Source of the DNA: Telluria beijingensis
GTDB taxonomy: Bacteria > Pseudomonadota > Gammaproteobacteria > Burkholderiales > Burkholderiaceae_D
DNA: 64,000 bases
Assembly (NCBI RefSeq): GCF_030770395.1
Contig: NZ_CP132480.1
Coordinates: 4,041,760-4,105,759 of the forward strand
Reading direction: 5' to 3'
Shown: one piece after another, positions 16,033 through 25,824 of the stretch
Numbering within the stretch: position 1 is the stretch's first letter
How the letters are laid out: each line of letters begins with the position of its first letter
Program-made: the position numbers and the translations under genes
The notes under the pieces: model-generated
Database searches by the model: none
The model's input: the letters and a program-made list of their open reading frames with translations, nothing else
What the model was told of the DNA's origin: nothing

Positions 16033-17655
16033 ATGCAATTGAAGCAACTGAAAATCGGGCAGCGCCTCGCGCTCGGGTTCGGCCTCGTGATGGTCCTGCT
16101 GCTGGTGGTGCTGGGCACCGGCATCCAGAAGCTGCAGGCCATCGATGCGCTGCTGGTCAAGGTGGTGGAGGAGAACAACGTCCGGATCGATGCCGCCGCC
16201 ACCATGCGCGACAACCTGCGCCGGATTTCGATCGCGGTGCGCGACATGACGATCGTCACCGACGACGCCGCGATGCAGGAGCAGGGCAAGACCATCGCCG
16301 ACGCCAGGACCGGCTACCAGCGCGCCGACGCCACGCTGGCCGGCTTGATCGTCACCGACGAGGGGCGCGCCATCCATGCGAAGATCGTTGCCGCCAGCGA
16401 TGCCGCGCTGCCGCTGATCGCCAGGGCCCAAGGATTCGCCCAGGCCAATGACCTCGAAGGCGGGCGCGATTTCCTGCTCGGCCAGATGGCGCCGGCGATG
16501 CGCGCCTGGTCGGCGGCGATCGACGAGATGGTGGCCTTGCAGGCCACGCGCAATGCCGAAGACCAGGCGCATGGCCGCGAAGCCTATTCCCAGGCCATGG
16601 TCCTGATGCTGGCGGTGGGCGGCTTCGCGATCCTGGCCGCGGTGGCGATCGCCTGGCTGATCAGCCGCTCGATCATCAAGCCGCTGAACCGGGCGGTGGT
16701 CGTGGCGCGCACCGTCGCCGCGGGTGACCTGAGCAGCGAGATCGCGGTCACCTCGACTGACGAAACCGGCCAGCTGCTGTCCGCCCTGAAAGAGATGAAC
16801 GACAACCTGCGCGCCATCGTCGGCCAGGTGCGCGACGGCACCGAGACCATCGCCACCGCCTCGGACGAGATCGCGTCGGGCAACCTCGACCTGTCGAGCC
16901 GCACCGAGCAGCAGGCCAGCTCGCTGGAAGAGACCGCCTCGTCGATGGAAGAACTGACCTCGACCGTCAAGCAGAACGCCGAACACGCACGCCAGGCCAA
17001 CGGCCTCGCGCGCTCGGCGTCCGACGTCGCCACCCGCGGCGGCGCGGTGGTGTCCGACGTGGTCGAGACCATGGGCGCGATCCACGCCTCGGCCAGCAAG
17101 ATCGTCGACATCATCTCGGTGATCGACGGCATCGCCTTCCAGACCAATATCCTGGCGCTGAATGCGGCGGTCGAAGCGGCGCGCGCCGGCGAGCAGGGGC
17201 GCGGCTTCGCGGTCGTGGCGAGCGAGGTGCGCAACCTGGCCCAGCGTTCGGCCAGCGCGGCGAAGGAAATCAAGACCCTGATCGACGATTCGGTGGCCAA
17301 GGTCGACGAGGGCAGCCGCCTGGTGAGCCAGGCCGGCGCCACCATGAGCGAGATCGTGGTGAGCGTCAAGCGCGTCACCGACATCATGGGCGAGATCACG
17401 GTGGCCAGCCACGAGCAGGAAAACGGCATCGAGCAGATCAACCAGGCGGTCAGCGAGATGGATGCGGTGACCCAGCAGAATGCGGCCCTGGTGGAAGAAG
17501 CGGCGGCGGCCGCCCAGTCGTTGAAGGAACAGTCGAGCCGCCTGGCCGAGACGGTCAGCGTGTTCAACCTCGGTGGCGTCCAGCGCCAGGCCGGCGCGGT
17601 GCGTAGCGCAGCGCCGCGTGCGGCGAGCAGCCAGCGCGCGCTGGCCGTCGCTTAA
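16033..17655 (+). CDS. Methyl-accepting chemotaxis protein
   Basis: This 540-residue chemoreceptor has a TM helix at about residues 10-30, a four-helix-bundle periplasmic sensor domain (about 32-188) and a second TM at about 190-212. A HAMP domain follows (about 213-265), then the signalling domain. The highly conserved tip reads [35 protein letters not shown]. Flanking Gln/Glu-rich helices carry methylation sites (e.g. [21 protein letters not shown]). It relays an unknown ligand to CheA/CheW. No C-terminal CheR-binding pentapeptide is obvious. Its TAA overlaps the stop of the convergent MFS gene. Confidence 0.93.
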
Positions 17656-18911
17656 GGAACGGACTTCAGCGCCTGCTCTTTTTCATGGTGCGGGAAGCGG
17701 TCCATTTTCGAGAGCACCGGGAACAGCACCGCCCATAGCCCGGTGACCGCCAGCGTGGCGACGCCGCCCAGCAGGATGGCGCGCGTCAGGCCCAGCCAGC
17801 CGGCGGTGACGCCGGATTCGAATTCCCCCAGCTCGTTCGAGGCGCCGATGAACACCGAGTTCACGGCGCTGACCCGGCCGCGGATCTCGTCCGGCGTTTC
17901 GTACTGCACCAGCAGGTGGCGGATATAGACGCTGACCATGTCGCCCACGCCGAGCAGGAACAGGGCGCCGATGGCGATGGGGAAGCTGTCGGTCAGGCCG
18001 AGCAGGATCACGCACACGCCGTACAGCGCGACGCCGCCGAACATCCAGGCGCCGACCCGGCGCGTGATCGGGAACATCGCCAGCGTGATCGAGCACAGGG
18101 CGGCGCCGACGCCGGGCGCGGTGCGCAGGAAACCGAGTTCGGTCGGCCCTGCGCCCAGCACGTCGTGGGCATAGGCCGGCAGCAGGGCGGTGGCGCCGCC
18201 GAACAGCACCGCGAACAGGTCGAGCGAAATCGCGCCCAGCACGATCGGGCGCGAACGCACGAAGCGCAGGCCTTCGAGCAGGGTATGCCAGCTGACCGGC
18301 GCCTTGTTGATCACCTGCTGGATGCTGCGCGTGTTCGAGATCAGGAACACCGCCAGCGCCAGCAGGGTGGCGGAGGTCATGTGCACCACCTGCGCGCCGA
18401 ATACGTACAGCAGGCCGCCGACGATCGGCCCCACGATCATCGCCACGTGCATGGTCGACGAGCCGAGCGCCACCGCCTGGCTGAATTCGCGGTCGGACAC
18501 CAGGTTCTTGAGCACCGCCTGCGAGGCCGGCATCATGAAGGCGCGCGCGCTGCCGAACACCACCAGGATCGCGAACACCGGCCAGATCACCGTGCTGCCG
18601 CTGGCGGTGAACGCGATCAGCAGCGTGCTGCACAGCAGCTGCACCGCCATGCAGGCCATCACGATGATGCGCCGGTTGTAACGGTCGGCCACGTGGCCGG
18701 CCCACAGGATGAACAGCAGGAACGGCGCGAACTGCGCCAGGCCGATCAGGCCCAGGTCGAACAGGCTGCCGGTGATCTGGTACACCTGCCAGCCGATCGC
18801 CACGCTCTGCATCTGGACCGCGAAGGTGGCCAGGAAGCGGGCGCCAAGGTAGAAGGCGAGGTTGCGGTTGCGCAGGACGCCGAGACGGCTGGACGGGGAG
18901 ATGAGCGACAT
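17652..18911 (-). CDS. MFS transporter, EntS/DHA3-like
   Basis: This 419-residue protein has about 12 hydrophobic segments. The segment [36 protein letters not shown] is typical of the EntS-like (DHA3) group, which exports siderophores or drugs by proton antiport. The cytoplasmic loop [14 protein letters not shown] is the MFS signature between helices 2 and 3. The substrate is unknown; no siderophore genes are near. It starts 8 bases after the ferredoxin-reductase gene, so the two may share a transcript. Confidence 0.88.
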
Positions 18912-18919
18912 CGATCGAT

Positions 18920-19948
18920 CTACACGCCTGCCAGGTCCGCTTCGGTGGTGAACGAATCGGCGAAGAACTCGTCTTCCGGCAGGCCGCACAAGGCGGTGTA
19001 GTCGCGCCGCGCGCTGTCGACCATGATGGGCGCGCCGCAGGCGTAGACCTGGTGGCCGGAGAGGTCGATGAGGTCCTGCATGACGGCCGCGTGCACGAAG
19101 CCGGTGCGGCCCGTCCAGCCGTCCTCGGGCAGCGCGTCCGAGATCACCGGCACGTAGGTGAAGTCGGGCAGTGTGGTTTCCCAGGCCCGGCACAGTTCGT
19201 CCATGTACAGGTCTTGCGGACGGCGGCCGCCCCAGTACAGGGCGACCTTGCGGGTCGACTTCAGGTGCATCAGGTGCTCGACCAGCGCCTTGACCGGGGC
19301 GAAGCCGGTGCCCGAGGCCAGCAGCACGATCGGCTTGTCGGACTCTTCGCGCAGGAAGAACGTGCCGAGCGGGCCCTCGAAGCGCAGGATGTCGCGCTCC
19401 TTCATGGCGCCGAATACGTGGTCGGTGAACAGGCCGCCCGCCAGGTGCCGGATATGCAGCTCGAGCGGACCTTCGAACGACGGCGCGTTGGCGATCGAGT
19501 AGGCGCGGCGCTTGCCGTCCTTGAGCAGGAATTCGATGTACTGGCCGGCGCGGTAGGCCAGCAGCTCGTTGGCCGGCAGCTGCAGCCTGACGATCGCGAC
19601 GTCGGGCGCGGCCTTGTGGATGGACGTGACGCGGGTCGGCATCTTGCGCAGCGGGTAGTCGGAACTGCCGCCGACTTCGCGCGCTTCGATCACCAGGTCG
19701 GCGCCGGGCACCGCGCAGCAGAACAGCGACATGCCGCCGGTCTTTTCAAGATCGCCCAGGGCGCGCTGCTGGTGCGGCTTGTGCGTCACCGTGCCGTCGA
19801 CGACCTTGCCTTTGCAGGAGCCGCAGGCGCCGTTCTTGCAGCCGTAGGGCAGGCCGATGCCGGCGCGGATGGCAGCGGAAAGGACGGTTTCATCGGCCTC
19901 GCAGGTGAACTGGCTGCCGCTGGGCTGGACGGTGATCTGGAAGGTCAT
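18920..19948 (-). CDS. Ferredoxin/FAD-dependent oxidoreductase (AscD-like)
   Basis: This 342-residue electron-transfer protein has an N-terminal 2Fe-2S ferredoxin domain with ligands in GCKNGACGSCKG plus a later Cys in LFCC. It is followed by an FAD-binding domain (RAYSIANAP) and an NAD(P)-binding domain (ASGTGFAPVKALVEH and the terminal VYACGAPIMVDSARRDY). Betaproteobacterial homologues are usually named CDP-6-deoxy-delta-3,4-glucoseen reductase after AscD, but no 3,6-dideoxyhexose genes are nearby. A general NAD(P)H-to-acceptor reductase is the safer reading. Confidence 0.88.
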   Translation of the reverse strand: MTFQITVQPSGSQFTCEADETVLSAAIRAGIGLPYGCKNGACGSCKGKVVDGTVTHKPHQQRALGDLEKTGGMSLFCCAVPGADLVIEAREVGGSSDYPLRKMPTRVTSIHKAAPDVAIVRLQLPANELLAYRAGQYIEFLLKDGKRRAYSIANAPSFEGPLELHIRHLAGGLFTDHVFGAMKERDILRFEGPLGTFFLREESDKPIVLLASGTGFAPVKALVEHLMHLKSTRKVALYWGGRRPQDLYMDELCRAWETTLPDFTYVPVISDALPEDGWTGRTGFVHAAVMQDLIDLSGHQVYACGAPIMVDSARRDYTALCGLPEDEFFADSFTTEADLAGV

Positions 19949-21001: not shown

Positions 21002-21033
21002 GAATTTGGTAAGCATTATTTTTCGACTATCTG

Positions 21034-21039
21034 TATAAT
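21034..21039 (+). promoter_or_regulatory. Consensus -10 hexamer upstream of the small HTH-like gene
   Basis: TATAAT lies in a short AT-rich stretch between the epimerase-like gene and the gene at 21150. No good -35 is present at 16-18 bases. The transcript would have a leader of about 105 nt. Confidence 0.35.
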
Positions 21040-21149
21040 TTCGCGTCTCGCGAAAATCGCCGAATAAATGCCGATGGTTTGCCTCTTTCTGCTAATTTCT
21101 CGCGGCCTCGCGTTGAAATATCTGAATTAATAAAAATACTGAAAGAGCC

Positions 21150-21422
21150 ATGCCGATTCGCCGCCTTCCACCCGGCGCGGAGTACGACCCCAACCGGGTC
21201 CTCGACGCCATCATTTCCCGCCTGCGCCTGAAGAACGATGCCGCCCTGTCGCGGCTGCTGGAGGTCGCGCCGCCCGTCATCAGCAAGATCCGCCACAGCA
21301 CCCTGCCGATCGGCGCCACGCTGCTGATCCGGATGCACGAGGAGAGCGACTTTAGCATCGGCGAACTGCGCGCGCTGATGATCCGGAAGGGCAGCGAAGT
21401 GGCGCACGACGGCGCCAAATAA
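21150..21422 (+). CDS. Small HTH-like protein of unknown function
   Basis: This is a 90-residue protein. Residues 16-70 are mostly helical, with a pattern suggestive of an XRE/Cro-type helix-turn-helix: LKNDAALSRLLEVAPPVISKIRHSTLPIGATLLIRMHEES, where AALSRLLEVAPPVISKIR would be helices 2 and 3. It could therefore bind DNA. It is convergent with the repeat protein (58 bases between stops) and has no partner gene. I know similar proteins only as hypothetical. Confidence 0.65.
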   Translation: MPIRRLPPGAEYDPNRVLDAIISRLRLKNDAALSRLLEVAPPVISKIRHSTLPIGATLLIRMHEESDFSIGELRALMIRKGSEVAHDGAK

Positions 21423-21480
21423 GCCGACAGCCGGCATGCGGCCAGGGCCGCCGTGCCGGCTGTCGGGTCGGGCAGGTGGA

Positions 21481-23007
21481 TCAGGCGGCTTGCGCGACCT
21501 TGCCCGGCGCTGCGCACCATGCGGTGTCACCGGCCTGGGCGGCCTGCTTGCCCGGGGCTGCGCACCATGCGGTATCACCGGCTTGGGCGGCCTGCTTGCC
21601 CGGGGCTGCGCACCATGCGGTGTCGGCGGCTTGGGCGGCCTGCTTGCCCGGGGCTGCGCACCATGCGGTGTCGGCGGCTTGGGCGGCCTGCTTGCCCGGG
21701 GCTGCGCACCATGCGGTGTCGGCGGCTTGGGCGGCCTGCTTGCCCGGGGCTGCGCACCATGCGGTGTCGGCGGCTTGGGCGGCCTGCTTGCCCGGGGCTG
21801 CGCACCATGCGGTGTCGGCGGCTTGGGCGGCCTGCTTGCCCGGGGCTGCGCACCATGCGGTGTCGGCGGCTTGGGCGGCCTGCTTGCCCGGGGCTGCGCA
21901 CCATGCGGTGTCGGCGGCTTGGGCGGCCTGCTTGCCCGGGGCTGCGCACCATGCGGTGTCGGCGGCTTGGGCGGCCTGCTTGCCCGGGGCTGCGCACCAT
22001 GCGGTGTCGGCGGCTTGGGCGGCCTGCTTGCCCGGGGCTGCGCACCATGCGGTGTCGGCGGCTTGGGCGGCCTGCTTGCCCGGGGCTGCGCACCATGCGG
22101 TGTCGGCGGCTTGGGCGGCCTGCTTGCCCGGGGCTGCGCACCATGCGGTGTCGGCGGCTTGGGCGGCCTGCTTGCCCGGGGCTGCGCACCATGCGGTGTC
22201 GGCGGCTTGGGCGGCCTGCTTGCCCGGGGCTGCGCACCATGCGGTGTCGGCGGCTTGGGCGGCCTGCTTGCCCGGGGCTGCGCACCATGCGGTGTCGGCG
22301 GCTTGGGCGGCCTGCTTGCCCGGGGCTGCGCACCATGCGGTGTCGGCGGCTTGGGCGGCCTGCTTGCCCGGGGCTGCGCACCATGCGGTGTCGGCGGCTT
22401 GGGCGGCCTGCTTGCCCGGGGCTGCGCACCATGCGGTGTCGGCGGCTTGGGCGGCCTGCTTGCCCGGGGCGGCGCACCATGCGGTGTCGGCGGCTTGGGC
22501 GGCCTGCTTGCCCGGGGCGGCGCACCACGCTGTGTCGGTGGCCTGGGCGGCCTGCTTGCCTGGCGCTGCGCACCAGGCGGCATCGGCTGCCTGCTTGCCC
22601 GGCGCTGCGCACCAGGCGGCGTCGCCCTTGACGACGACGCCGAATTCGGCCTCGTAGATCTCGCGCATGCGCTCGCCGGCGCGGGTGCGTTCTCCGTCGT
22701 CGGCGCCGGCGCCCATGCCGACGTAGGGGTAGTGGTGCAGGAAGAAGCCGAAGGTGGCTTCGCAGTCGCGTGCGTACTTCATGGTGTCGAGGATGTGATA
22801 GTGCCAGAAGGTGTCGACATCCACGGTCGGCGAAGCGCCGTCGTCCGGGTACTTCTTCATCAGGAACAGGAAGCGGCGGTACTCGGCTTCCACGGCGTTG
22901 GCGCGGCGTTCGGACCAGCCTTCGCCCGACTCCACATGCATCAGCTTCATTTTGATGGGCGCCAGGTCGAGAGCCTCGAACACTGAGAATTCGGTATTGG
23001 TCGACAT
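21481..23007 (-). CDS. GRDP/DUF1399-like protein with 24 Trp-Cys repeats
   Basis: This is a 508-residue protein in two parts. Residues 1-129 form a conserved domain with WHYHILDT (His69, His71), DCEATFGFFLHHYPYVG (Cys82, His91, His92). This is the core of bacterial glycine-rich-domain-containing-like (DUF1399) proteins; the His/Cys set could bind metal. Residues 130-508 are 24 copies of a WCAAPGK motif, 21 of them in exact 16-residue units AWCAAPGKQAAQAADT (last two read AGDT). The first units are shorter or variant and the last is cut to AWCAAPGKVAQAA. The ATG at 23007 follows GAGGTG by six bases; a GTG nine bases earlier overlaps that site. No signal peptide is seen. Function is unknown. 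The gene for a histidine kinase follows upstream on the same strand. Confidence 0.85.
   Translation of the reverse strand: MSTNTEFSVFEALDLAPIKMKLMHVESGEGWSERRANAVEAEYRRFLFLMKKYPDDGASPTVDVDTFWHYHILDTMKYARDCEATFGFFLHHYPYVGMGAGADDGERTRAGERMREIYEAEFGVVVKGDAAWCAAPGKQAADAAWCAAPGKQAAQATDTAWCAAPGKQAAQAADTAWCAAPGKQAAQAADTAWCAAPGKQAAQAADTAWCAAPGKQAAQAADTAWCAAPGKQAAQAADTAWCAAPGKQAAQAADTAWCAAPGKQAAQAADTAWCAAPGKQAAQAADTAWCAAPGKQAAQAADTAWCAAPGKQAAQAADTAWCAAPGKQAAQAADTAWCAAPGKQAAQAADTAWCAAPGKQAAQAADTAWCAAPGKQAAQAADTAWCAAPGKQAAQAADTAWCAAPGKQAAQAADTAWCAAPGKQAAQAADTAWCAAPGKQAAQAADTAWCAAPGKQAAQAADTAWCAAPGKQAAQAGDTAWCAAPGKQAAQAGDTAWCAAPGKVAQAA
21484..22620 (-). repeat. 48-bp tandem repeat array inside the repeat-protein gene
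   Basis: The array holds 24 units with a 48-base period; the first two units (5' end of the gene) are 39 and 51 bases. From 21579 to 22470, about 18.6 units are identical base for base, while the outer units carry substitutions. This pattern shows recent expansion or homogenisation from the centre. All six reading frames stay open across the array because 48 is a multiple of three and the unit has no stop in any frame. Confidence 0.97.
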
Positions 23008-23252
23008 TGTATTCACCTCGTTGAGTAGTAATGGTGCTGCGTTATCCCTGTTTGGAATGGCCGGTCATGCCGGTCGTGCTGGTGGTTTCATCGCCTTCTG
23101 TTTGTCAATACTGCTTCTGCCAGGTTGGTATTGCGCCCTGACAGTGATAGAAATTGTCATGCGGATCGTCAGCGCAACTGTTGAGCTTGCTCAAACCTGG
23201 ACCGCAAAAAAAGGTATCTGTTGCAAGCCGGCGTAAGTACAGCCGGCATCCA

Positions 23253-25103
23253 TCAGGCGGCCACCGGCACCTTGCCGAGCGCCCCCGGATACGCCAGGTC
23301 TCCGCTGCCGAACATGGGCGTGACCGGGATCGACACCACCACCGTGGTGCCGGCGTCCAGGCCGCTGCTGATCGAGAACGAGCCGCCCAGGATGCCGACC
23401 CGCTCCTCGATCCCGACCAGGCCGAACGAGCCGTGGCGGTTGCGGCTGCCCGGCTGCATGCCGACGCCGTTGTCGCGGATCGTCATGGTCAGCATGTCGG
23501 CCTGCTGCTGCAGCGCGATCCTGACCCTGGTCGCGCGCGCATGGCGCGCCACGTTGTTGAGCGACTCCTGCAGGATGCGGAAGAAGGCGGTGGCGCAACC
23601 GTCGTCGATGCGGTGCTCGCCGTCGTCGTCGACCAGTTCGCACTCGATGCCGGTGCGGCGCGCGAAATCGGCCACCTGCCAGTCGACCGCCGCCGACAGT
23701 CCCAGGTCGAGCACATTCGGCCGCAGGTCGTTGATGATCTGGCGCACGCTGCGGATGGTGACGTCGATCTGGCGCACGGTGGCGTCGGCGCGCGCGTGCA
23801 GCCGCCGGTGGCCGCCGCGGGTGCGGTTGGCCAAAAACTCGGCTTCGATCTTCAGCGCCAGCAGGTTCTGCGCCAGGTCGTCGTGGATCTCGCGCGCGAT
23901 CCGCTTGCGTTCGCCTTCCTTGATCTGCTCGGCGTGCGCCGCCAGCAGGCGCAGCTTTTCGTGGCTGGCCTGCAGCTTGGCCTGGCTGGCGCGCAGCTCG
24001 CGCGTCATTTCCTCGGCCATGCGCAGGGCATTGCGGCGCGACGAGGCCAGGGTCTGGAACAGGGCGTACAGCAGGGCGGTGCTGATGCCGGCGGCAAACG
24101 CGGCCAGCCACGGGTAATACATGTCGAAGCGGGTGTACAGCGCCGACTTGGGGATGCTGAAGTCGGCGCGCCACATGCGCTGGTTGAACTCGATCGGCAG
24201 GCTGGCGGCGAACACGCTGCTGTCGTCCGGCGGCGCCGGCGGGTTGGGGCGGTCGAGGCTGGCCAGGCTGTCGTACAGGATCGCGCGCGGCGGCGCCTCG
24301 CCCGGTTCGGGCGGCACCGCGGTCAGCTCGGTCAGGACCAGGCGCGCGCCCCGGATCGGGAACTCGTCGAGCACCCCGCCCACCAAGCGCGCGACGCCGA
24401 AGCCGATGCCGACCGAGCCGATATAGGCCAGGCGCCGCCCCTCGACCGAGTCGGTCGGCAAGTCGCTGCGGTACACCGGCAGGCGCAAGGCCAGGCCGCT
24501 CTGGTTGGGGCCCGAAAACAGTTCGATGCGGGTGCCCGAGGCGCTGGGCAGGCCGGTATCGCGGGCATTGGCCAGCACGCGCCGGGTGGTGCCGCGCGCT
24601 TCCAGGTCCATGCCCAGCTTGGTAAGCGAATGCGGCAGCAGGGGCTCGATATAGACCAGCACCGTATAGGTATGGCGGTCGGGCTGGGCCAGCAGCGGTT
24701 CGTAGTGGTGCACGCCGCGCCGCGCCAGGCGGCCCCTGATTTCGTCGTTCAGCGCCGGCAGGCCGGGGGCGTGGACGGCGCGCGCATAGTTGATGACTTC
24801 GATGCCCGGGAAGTTGCGCTTGATGTCCAGTTGCTGCACGTACTGGCGGAACTGGTCGGCCGAGGTGTCCGGCGCGGCGCGGAACAGGCCGGCCGCGCCG
24901 CGCAGCACGTCGCTATAGCTCTTGATGCGGGCGTCGATCGTGTACTGCGAGGCGCGCGCCATGCTGCGAAAACGCGCGTGGGCATCGCTCTCGATCGCTT
25001 CGGCGGTGGTGAAATAGCCGCCCGCGCCAAGGGTCAGGGACAGCAGCACGCCCGCGATGAGGGTGGCCGGCGCGAACATCCCGGGGTGGCGGTCTGGGGG
25101 CAT
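23253..25103 (-). CDS. CHASE-domain sensor histidine kinase, NarX/DesK type
   Basis: This is a protein of about 616 residues. TM1 is at about residues 9-30; the extracytoplasmic CHASE domain spans about 35-320 (IKSYSDVLRGAAGLFRA, FPGIEVINYARAVHA, RDTGLPSASGTRIEL); TM2 lies near 335-355. After a coiled linker comes a HisKA_3 dimerisation domain with phospho-acceptor His in REIHDDLAQNLLALK, and a HATPase domain with NNVARHA, DNGVGM and GLVGIEERV. Kinases of this type pair with NarL-family regulators; none is encoded beside it. The ATG at 25103 is chosen over an upstream TTG at 25151; an ATG at 25079 is also possible. Confidence 0.88.
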   Translation of the reverse strand: MPPDRHPGMFAPATLIAGVLLSLTLGAGGYFTTAEAIESDAHARFRSMARASQYTIDARIKSYSDVLRGAAGLFRAAPDTSADQFRQYVQQLDIKRNFPGIEVINYARAVHAPGLPALNDEIRGRLARRGVHHYEPLLAQPDRHTYTVLVYIEPLLPHSLTKLGMDLEARGTTRRVLANARDTGLPSASGTRIELFSGPNQSGLALRLPVYRSDLPTDSVEGRRLAYIGSVGIGFGVARLVGGVLDEFPIRGARLVLTELTAVPPEPGEAPPRAILYDSLASLDRPNPPAPPDDSSVFAASLPIEFNQRMWRADFSIPKSALYTRFDMYYPWLAAFAAGISTALLYALFQTLASSRRNALRMAEEMTRELRASQAKLQASHEKLRLLAAHAEQIKEGERKRIAREIHDDLAQNLLALKIEAEFLANRTRGGHRRLHARADATVRQIDVTIRSVRQIINDLRPNVLDLGLSAAVDWQVADFARRTGIECELVDDDGEHRIDDGCATAFFRILQESLNNVARHARATRVRIALQQQADMLTMTIRDNGVGMQPGSRNRHGSFGLVGIEERVGILGGSFSISSGLDAGTTVVVSIPVTPMFGSGDLAYPGALGKVPVAA

Positions 25104-25824
25104 ACGGTGGTCTCTAAAACGCGACGTCGCACCAGGCGCGTCCAATGTCAATACGCTAAAGCAATACTGGCAGAGACCGGAGCTAGCAGGTTTGCTAGGT
25201 TTTGTAAAAAAGAGTCAAAACAGCGGCGCCGATTCTGAGGGGAATGGCGCCGCGGCAATCGCTTAGTTGAAGCGGACTTGTTCGGCATGAAGCAGAATAA
25301 GGCCATCCTGGTCATCAGGCGCTCGGTGCCTTGCTGCTTTCAAAAACGTGAACAAATATGCTCAGCATTTTCTTCCTGCCCCGAACCGTCCTGTTGACCC
25401 TGTTCGTACCTGACAGGCGTTACTTTCCCGCCTACCACCTGCAAAACGCCGGTGGCAGTGCCTGGCGTTGCCACCAGACTCGCCACGGGTAACGCAGCAT
25501 GCGTCGCGAGGACGCTGGTTGCGAGCCGTTTTCCACATATAAGTTGGCAAGAAGCCGATTTGACGAACGCATTCGTACACTCTCGTTCTTCCGCTTGGTT
25601 TTCGCGGAATGGACGAACAATTCAATCGCGCTGTGTCTTACCTGCATACGTAGTTTCAGACACCGAAACCCCGCATAGAGTTCCGCCCTATGATCTGGTC
25701 GGTGCAGATCAAGGTCGTATCCTTGGCGATGCAGGCCGGGTTACCGGTGGCGAAGAACTTCTGTTCCTTGCCATCATTCGAGCGAATCAGTTCGCGCACG
25801 CCTGCGAGGTGGCTATAATTCCGT
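25104..25824. other. Long intergenic region without a supported gene
   Basis: About 720 bases lie between the divergent histidine kinase and the receiver gene. The stretch is less GC-rich than the neighbours. Short open frames exist on both strands, but none has a ribosome binding site or a recognisable protein. It must hold the kinase promoter, and it ends with the receiver promoter at 25791-25819. I see no riboswitch or RNA structure that I can name. Confidence 0.4.
25791..25819 (+). promoter_or_regulatory. Promoter giving a leaderless receiver mRNA
   Basis: TATAAT at 25814-25819 has TTCGCG (25791-25796) 17 bases upstream, a weak -35. The start codon ATG is at 25825, so transcription would begin at or next to the start codon. 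No Shine-Dalgarno sequence lies between. Confidence 0.55.

Follow-up and report, generated by a model that had tools for sequence, protein, structure and literature searches.

The locus and its array gene

We analysed a stretch of 64,000 nucleotides, referred to as the window throughout, in which a gene for a receptor kinase with a CHASE sensor domain lies directly upstream of a gene whose product consists of a conserved N-terminal domain (N-domain) and a long array of tandem cores. The relevant features are as follows.

23253..25151, minus strand: CHASE-HisKA_3-HATPase_c receptor kinase gene (Pfam), directly upstream of the array gene; its true start is uncertain
24363..24869, minus strand: CHASE sensor domain, receptor residues 95-263 (Pfam)
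23319..23912, minus strand: kinase core, receptor residues 414-611 (Pfam)
23008..23252: gap of 245 bp from receptor gene to array gene, with GAGG before the ATG (seen by eye)
21481..23007, minus strand: array protein gene, GRDP-like N-domain plus 24 tandem cores, 508 aa (ORF list, unit count, Pfam)
22618..23007, minus strand: N-domain, conserved and His/Trp-rich (DTFWHYHILDT..DC..FGxFLHHxPY), with a short joint (alignment)
21484..22617, minus strand: array of 24 x AWCAAPGK, period 16 aa or 48 bp (Tandem Repeats Finder, unit count)
21150-21422, plus strand: conserved 90-aa gene with no Pfam or NCBIfam match, convergent and just downstream; its family occurs in 61 of 76 related loci
17652-19193, minus strand: MFS transporter with a match to MFS_3 ('transmembrane secretion effector'); no other candidate exporter was seen near the pair

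A preliminary description of this DNA had proposed the start and the repeat array, and both are real: the enclosing reading frame (21481-23016, minus strand) is 511 aa long, translation probably begins with the ATG at 23007, and the resulting 508-aa protein carries AWCAAPGK 24 times. The array is made up of one unit of 13 residues, 22 units of 16 residues and a short final unit; 19 of the 16-residue units read exactly AWCAAPGKQAAQAADT and the other three are near-exact. Tandem Repeats Finder reported a period of 48 with 22.7 copies, 98% matches and a score of 2052, and 17 of the units share one DNA sequence. Because its units are mostly DNA-identical, we concluded that the window's array expanded recently, and its high copy number may be neutral even though the cores of the family are not. 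The gene is single-copy in a one-contig genome of 6.0 Mb. The 48-base unit contains no stops, so other frames are also open across the array; the long reading frames at 21027-22583 and 21436-22986 are a trap for gene callers.

The N-domain and its relatives

The N-domain had been called GRDP/DUF1399-like, and Pfam placed it over the cut-off for that family (PF07173), but only just: 24.2 against 22.7 bits, over residues 43-84 of the 511-aa frame and profile positions 98-143 of 143 only. This model is too weak for surveys (4/399). Of the 62 genomes in the genus, 61 gave a match to the N-domain. The remaining one (G013) has a contig that breaks off within the glnS-adjacent kinase gene, so the array gene may merely lie beyond its end. 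Residues W68, H69, H71, D81, C82 and H92 were invariant among 34 sequences and could be metal ligands.

AlphaFold2, run with 34 sequences, gave a helical N-domain with block-mean pLDDT of at least 90 over residues 11-50 and 61-90. Nearly every array unit was drawn as a strand at pLDDT 50-60, and none as a helix. The full-length prediction without an alignment gave the same picture (pTM 0.30); AlphaFold2 can draw solenoids for perfect repeats, and therefore we gave the full-length fold no weight. A Foldseek search of PDB with the model of residues 1-207 yielded no match at E <= 0.001, and a PDB sequence search produced a single match at E 0.33, so that no solved relative was found.

Many distant GRDP-like proteins (among L129-L176) end in Gly/Cys-rich tails, such as GGGCGGCGGGGD, and one of these relatives (L129) is fused to TIGR04222. 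A short GRDP-like protein with a terminal Cys pair was seen in three distant genomes, one of them an Azospirillum plasmid (L178:2042-9266, L181:217-7183, L324:3932-8327). Its partners there are a methyltransferase, a TauD-type dioxygenase and a large ABC-type ATPase, the last with a UvrA DNA-binding domain in L181 and L324, absent from that of L178; L181 also has a pentapeptide-repeat protein. The arrangement is suggestive of a small peptide cluster that includes self-protection.

A CHASE receptor gene accompanies the array

The receptor kinase scored 94.5 bits for CHASE, 48.4 for HisKA_3 and 44.8 for HATPase_c. CHASE domains lie outside the membrane. The array gene is thus linked, as a pheromone precursor would be, to a membrane receptor with an extracytoplasmic sensor, the location of which is taken from the known nature of the domain. 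The preliminary description had seen no relevant gene next to the array; this holds for proteases and exporters directly beside it, but the receptor gene 245 bp upstream was missed.

A contig scan found 149 relatives; the 80 best were retained and correspond to 76 loci, mostly in Massilia and other Oxalobacteraceae-type genera. The receptor-kinase family was present in all 76 of these glnS-linked loci. From 75 of them we took 99 array proteins; in L103 the array gene runs off the contig. A receptor gene on the same strand precedes every one of the 99 array reading frames. Ninety-seven directly follow the receptor gene or another array gene, and the other two follow a short overlapping reading frame that is probably spurious. 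Two array genes per receptor occurred in 17/82 cases in this first set and in 20/108 in a second set. In L075, L078, L080, L081, L107 and others, adjacent array genes with different cores (e.g. AFSGVAAK and AYSGAAVQ) share one receptor. Both genes were also found in 100 of 100 further regions, which partly overlap the first set and were picked from the matches listed (198 of 392 genomes matched, weak matches included); 94 were from other genera, one per genome, and six from the same genus with several cassettes.

Most of these pairs represent one syntenic locus beside glnS, and therefore loci elsewhere make the stronger test. A CHASE gene lies beside the array in 11 of 13 array loci of other genera, a count that omits L318, G828, G841 and further g363/g347 genomes. 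The array is divergent from a CHASE-PAS-HisKA_3 kinase in L309, L310, L311, L312, L314, L315 and L317 (7/7 by Pfam), although L311, L312 and L314 have similar flanking genes and are not independent. It directly follows a CHASE-PAS-GAF-GGDEF-EAL protein in L316 and CHASE...GGDEF-EAL proteins in Variovorax (L322) and Cupriavidus (L323), and L320 has its CHASE gene at glnS. In the other two loci the array adjoins a dCache-GGDEF-EAL protein without CHASE (L313) and a GGDEF-EAL protein truncated where the contig stops (L319). We opened three of 18 plasmid records, and the third (L324) had no array. Chance adjacency should be rare, because only 2-8 CHASE matches were counted per genome in 13 genomes. 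Beside array-free GRDP-like genes, by comparison, none of 10 regions of 7.5-18 kb (L177-L185 and L324, part of the array-free relatives) matched a CHASE profile derived from the family. One locus at glnS has lost its array and retains an open CHASE kinase gene next to it (L318:6092-6562).

That is, CHASE stands beside the array in both kinase and GGDEF-EAL contexts. We concluded that the array's constant partner is the CHASE sensor, and that the output module varies.

Unit types, copy number and selection

Units of the A-[YWF]-[CS] type were present at least once in all 99 relatives and at least twice in 98, with a median of 9 per protein (range 1-19; the second set also has a maximum of 19). 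The 24 units of the window are the highest number counted. The suggestion that a family trait had been amplified here is thereby borne out, as is the statement that relatives end in Tyr/Trp-Cys motifs, to which Phe and Ser versions must be added: 23 relatives were of type WC, 23 YC, 23 YS, 17 FC, 8 FS and 5 WS. Over 925 units the core consensus was A, an aromatic residue, C or S, A or G, any residue, then P or A. In some other genera the first core residue is Ser (SYCARV). An exception to one type per protein was seen in L320:6050-6922, in which SYS... and AWCDAV units alternate. It had been expected that homologues without repeats, with the array confined to one assembly, would count against a family feature; array-free relatives do exist outside the CHASE-linked set, L318 lies within it and some arrays are Cys-free, but the array is not confined to one assembly.

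Within proteins, core positions were 94-100% uniform and residues outside the core fell to ~60% (925 units). Between adjacent units, pooled over the 99 relatives, the core had pS of 0.468 and pN of 0.023, a ratio of 0.05. The linkers had a similar silent divergence (pS 0.545) and a pN/pS of 0.75. Anchoring on the motif restricts three core positions and leaves +2, +3 and +4 free; at these the ratios were 0.02, 0.14 and 0.12. Because the free positions also had low ratios, core uniformity in the family reflects protein-level selection and not recent copying alone. The cores are under purifying selection in the family at large. The early idea of a multi-core precursor gains ground from this result, since selection keeps the core while the linkers drift, although no modifying enzyme was recognised at the locus. 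Spacing between units was constant in only 20 of 95 arrays; together with the lack of predicted helix and the low-confidence strands, this speaks against the helix-per-unit scaffold that had also been suggested.

Sensor and core divergence

If the cores were read by the sensor, the two might be expected to vary together. On the CHASE tree of 116 loci, the aromatic letter changed at least 21 times between proteins and C/S only 3 times. The 116-locus set was dereplicated within 2%, and the neighbour and parsimony tests omit genomes with several cassettes and loci without glnS. The nearest neighbour shared the aromatic plus C/S type in 100/116 cases by CHASE, compared with 84/116 by kinase and 84/116 by glnS. 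Where CHASE and glnS neighbours were discordant, the type agreed with CHASE only in 17 cases and with glnS only in one; for CHASE against kinase the corresponding numbers were 18 and two. The whole 8-letter motif was nearer that of the CHASE neighbour in 24 cases and that of the glnS neighbour in eight, with 38 ties; in all of these counts the rows are not independent. Parsimony gave a small saving, with 21 aromatic changes on the CHASE tree, 23 on the kinase tree, 25 on glnS and 27 on the N-domain (116 loci), and 14 compared with 15-19 on the other trees for 62 loci. Against co-variation, a partial Mantel test relating motif to CHASE distance, with kinase and N-domain controlled for, gave -0.11 (2/82 pairs with gappy receptors dropped), and in one genus AYSGRAVQ and AFSSAAVQ cores replace each other although CHASE differs by just 4-13%. 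Taken together, the tests give a mixed picture. Faster CHASE evolution combined with linkage could be the source of part of the coupling.

For the window itself, the closest CHASE domain was that of L039 (6% different), followed by those of Trp-type L042 and L044 at 22-23%. Compared with its near relatives L040 and L041, both of Phe type, the CHASE domains were 29-30% different and the kinases only 2-3%. The distance was 25-26% to Phe-type L048, L050 and L052 and 34% to Trp-type L047. The window is therefore a partial and unclean example of co-variation, because these three Phe-type loci are nearer than L047.

A rule by which position 118 (V, D or E) names the aromatic residue (F, Y or W, respectively) was derived on 62 loci, with a simulated-null p of 0.01-0.23 depending on the assumed rate. 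The rule failed on 58 held-out pairs: V-F held in 2/2, D-Y in 13/19 and E-W in 2/3, the position was M in 30, A in three and a gap in one, and always guessing Tyr was right in 38/58. The held-out set came from 108 pairs: 12 were removed because CHASE was gappy or no unit could be located, then 35 of the remaining 96 because they lay within 3% of the first set, and finally pairs equally close to each other.

Six genomes carry duplications of the whole receptor-array unit. In eight such cassette pairs the cores differed in all eight, the CHASE domains were 35-42% different and the kinase cores 0-8%; the N-domains were 1-4% different in four pairs and 14-29% in the other four. At the DNA level (one pair in each of five genomes), identity was mostly 56-80% in CHASE, rising to 89% at its end, 87-100% in the kinase core, 48-65% in the kinase C-tail, 80-100% in the N-domain and 46-70% in the array. 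The kinase core, and often the N-domain, thus look homogenised in cassettes, and the sensor and array do not. This pattern fits ligand-receptor dialects; faster evolution of sensor and array with gene conversion of the rest could also produce it.

Neighbouring genes, modification and export

Besides the receptor, the recurrent neighbours were glnS and the 90-aa gene of no known family. In at least 44 of the 76 loci an MFS gene on the same strand as the array is found 2.1-4.2 kb further downstream, beyond convergent genes; the number is a lower bound because the flanks were 6 kb. By eye, no signal peptide was seen on the array protein. Neither a protease nor an exporter immediately adjoins the array-receptor pair, and no modifying enzyme was recognised among the recurrent neighbours (by eye, with Pfam on the window's neighbours only). 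MNIO (PF05114) is present in 44 of the 62 genus genomes and absent from the window genome (G000), which rules out MNIO modification there. In G903, whose receptor at the locus is the same as that of L064, the nearest of four MNIO matches is ~76 kb from the array gene, so the two are not neighbours there. The window suggested that the kinase C-tail repeats the core, but inspection of the other paired kinases by eye did not show this.

Interpretation

The array gene stood beside the receptor gene in nearly all related genomes examined, which suggests a peptide-receptor signalling pair not described before. We propose that the array protein forms the ligand side of a pair with the adjacent CHASE receptor, and that its cores are, or yield, the sensed peptide; we give this reading a probability of roughly 0.42. 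The computed support for it is a gene pairing that tracks the CHASE sensor and not the output domain, the selection acting on the cores, and the mosaic divergence of sensor and core; the nearest-neighbour counts and the peptide stated for DhkA (PMC1863423) also favour it. Weighing against it are the negative partial Mantel value, the small parsimony saving, the failed position 118 rule, the core switch at nearly constant CHASE in one genus, N-domains nearly shared in only half of the cassette pairs, receptors followed by two array genes, the two unit types of L320 and the CHASE-free L313 locus. The N-domain would act as carrier, leader or processing domain, and the tandem A-aromatic-Cys/Ser-x-x-Pro cores would be the short peptide read by the CHASE sensor, or its source, much as a multi-copy pheromone precursor serves its cognate receptor. 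The cores would have to be released, leave the cytosol and bind CHASE, and these steps we infer; exit from the cytosol is the weakest of them, since no signal peptide is visible and neither a protease nor an exporter adjoins the pair directly. A bolder version is a neuropeptide-precursor-like system of the Burkholderiales, in which up to 24 peptide copies would be released and sensed by a CHASE receptor dedicated to them that feeds a phosphorelay or c-di-GMP; the His-rich N-domain might modify the peptides, and array-wide core switches would create dialects. In this full form we consider it unlikely.

Among the alternatives, the array could encode a multi-core, RiPP-like modified peptide with another job (metal binding or competition) that is merely regulated through the CHASE receptor. 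Such a peptide would explain a constant core with drifting linkers, the N-domain relatives that precede Cys-bearing tails, three of them in distant genomes with a methyltransferase, a TauD-type dioxygenase and an ABC/UvrA-like ATPase, and the nearby MFS gene in at least 44/76 loci. It is nonetheless unlikely, because no recurrent neighbour was recognised as a modifying enzyme by eye or, in the window, by Pfam, the window genome has no MNIO PF05114, and kinase and GGDEF-EAL outputs both occur, so that regulation of a single operon is not what the loci share. Unlikely, too, is an intracellular adaptor or scaffold whose repeats bind and tune the receptor or its output. The low-confidence strand on nearly every unit and the absence of a signal peptide to the eye would suit a cytosolic protein, but the common partner is the sensor while the cytosolic output differs, and constant spacing in 20/95 arrays is little for a scaffold.

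A metal or thiol store, put forward in the preliminary description, would accord with one Cys per unit in the window and with the aromatic residue that precedes 559 of 568 tail Cys. We regard it as very improbable: Ser takes the Cys position in 36 of 99 relatives, of which 35 have no Cys in the tail and one has a single Cys, so that conserved metal-binding Cys are not found, and a store leaves the CHASE link without a reason. A neutral slippage array without function, for which the 17 DNA-identical units and thus the recent expansion in the window might speak, is the least credible, being contradicted for the family by a core pN/pS of 0.05 at pS near 0.5 across the pooled relatives.

Returning to the ligand-receptor reading, a switching array linked to a receptor names candidate CHASE ligands; for the window these are peptides around AWCAAPGK, which can be synthesised directly. 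If true, the reading would add a form of Gram-negative peptide signalling that draws on multi-copy precursors, and the GRDP-like domain of unknown function would gain a role.

Comparison with known systems

CHASE ligands are described as known in only a few cases (PMC1863423). The same paper states that a small peptide is recognised by DhkA from Dictyostelium, and PcrK reads isopentenyladenine (PMC7072313). Like the window receptor, both carry a CHASE sensor on a kinase; unlike the window locus, no array gene is mentioned with them in the parts of these papers available to us (PMC7072313, PMC1863423). Our literature search, which covered titles and the starts of abstracts and mostly did not reach subscription papers, showed nothing on an array-CHASE pair among the papers listed. 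The DUF1399 papers listed concern mostly plants, with nothing by title on bacterial array proteins. PF07173 resembles the array protein through the N-domain, just over the cut-off, and its model has neither tandem aromatic-Cys/Ser cores nor a CHASE link.

Multi-core RiPP precursors (microviridin, PMC5934393; thiovarsolin, NF033878) share the repeated core in one precursor, but the array locus has no recognised modifying enzyme, and the thiovarsolin model scored the array protein at 30.1, below its cut-off of 35, with none of four relatives scanned matching at E 0.01. The nearest RiPP survey, as far as its accessible text goes, treats MNIO substrates and TIGR04222 proteins, the latter as possible MNIO substrates (PMC12452194). 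Buf_EGKCG/oxazolins and TIGR04222 proteins have tandem Cys repeats, as the array protein does, but go largely with MNIO enzymes (PMC12452194), of which the window genome has none. The adjamnio-1 example given in the survey is from Massilia sp. CF038, which our set includes as L064.

The closest parallels in signalling are agr and ComX/ComP. The proposed array system differs from these in its many cores per precursor, its large conserved domain as putative carrier, its CHASE receptor, its Gram-negative host and the lack of a processing gene, and would resemble them in linking a variable sensor to a variable peptide, with a conserved kinase.
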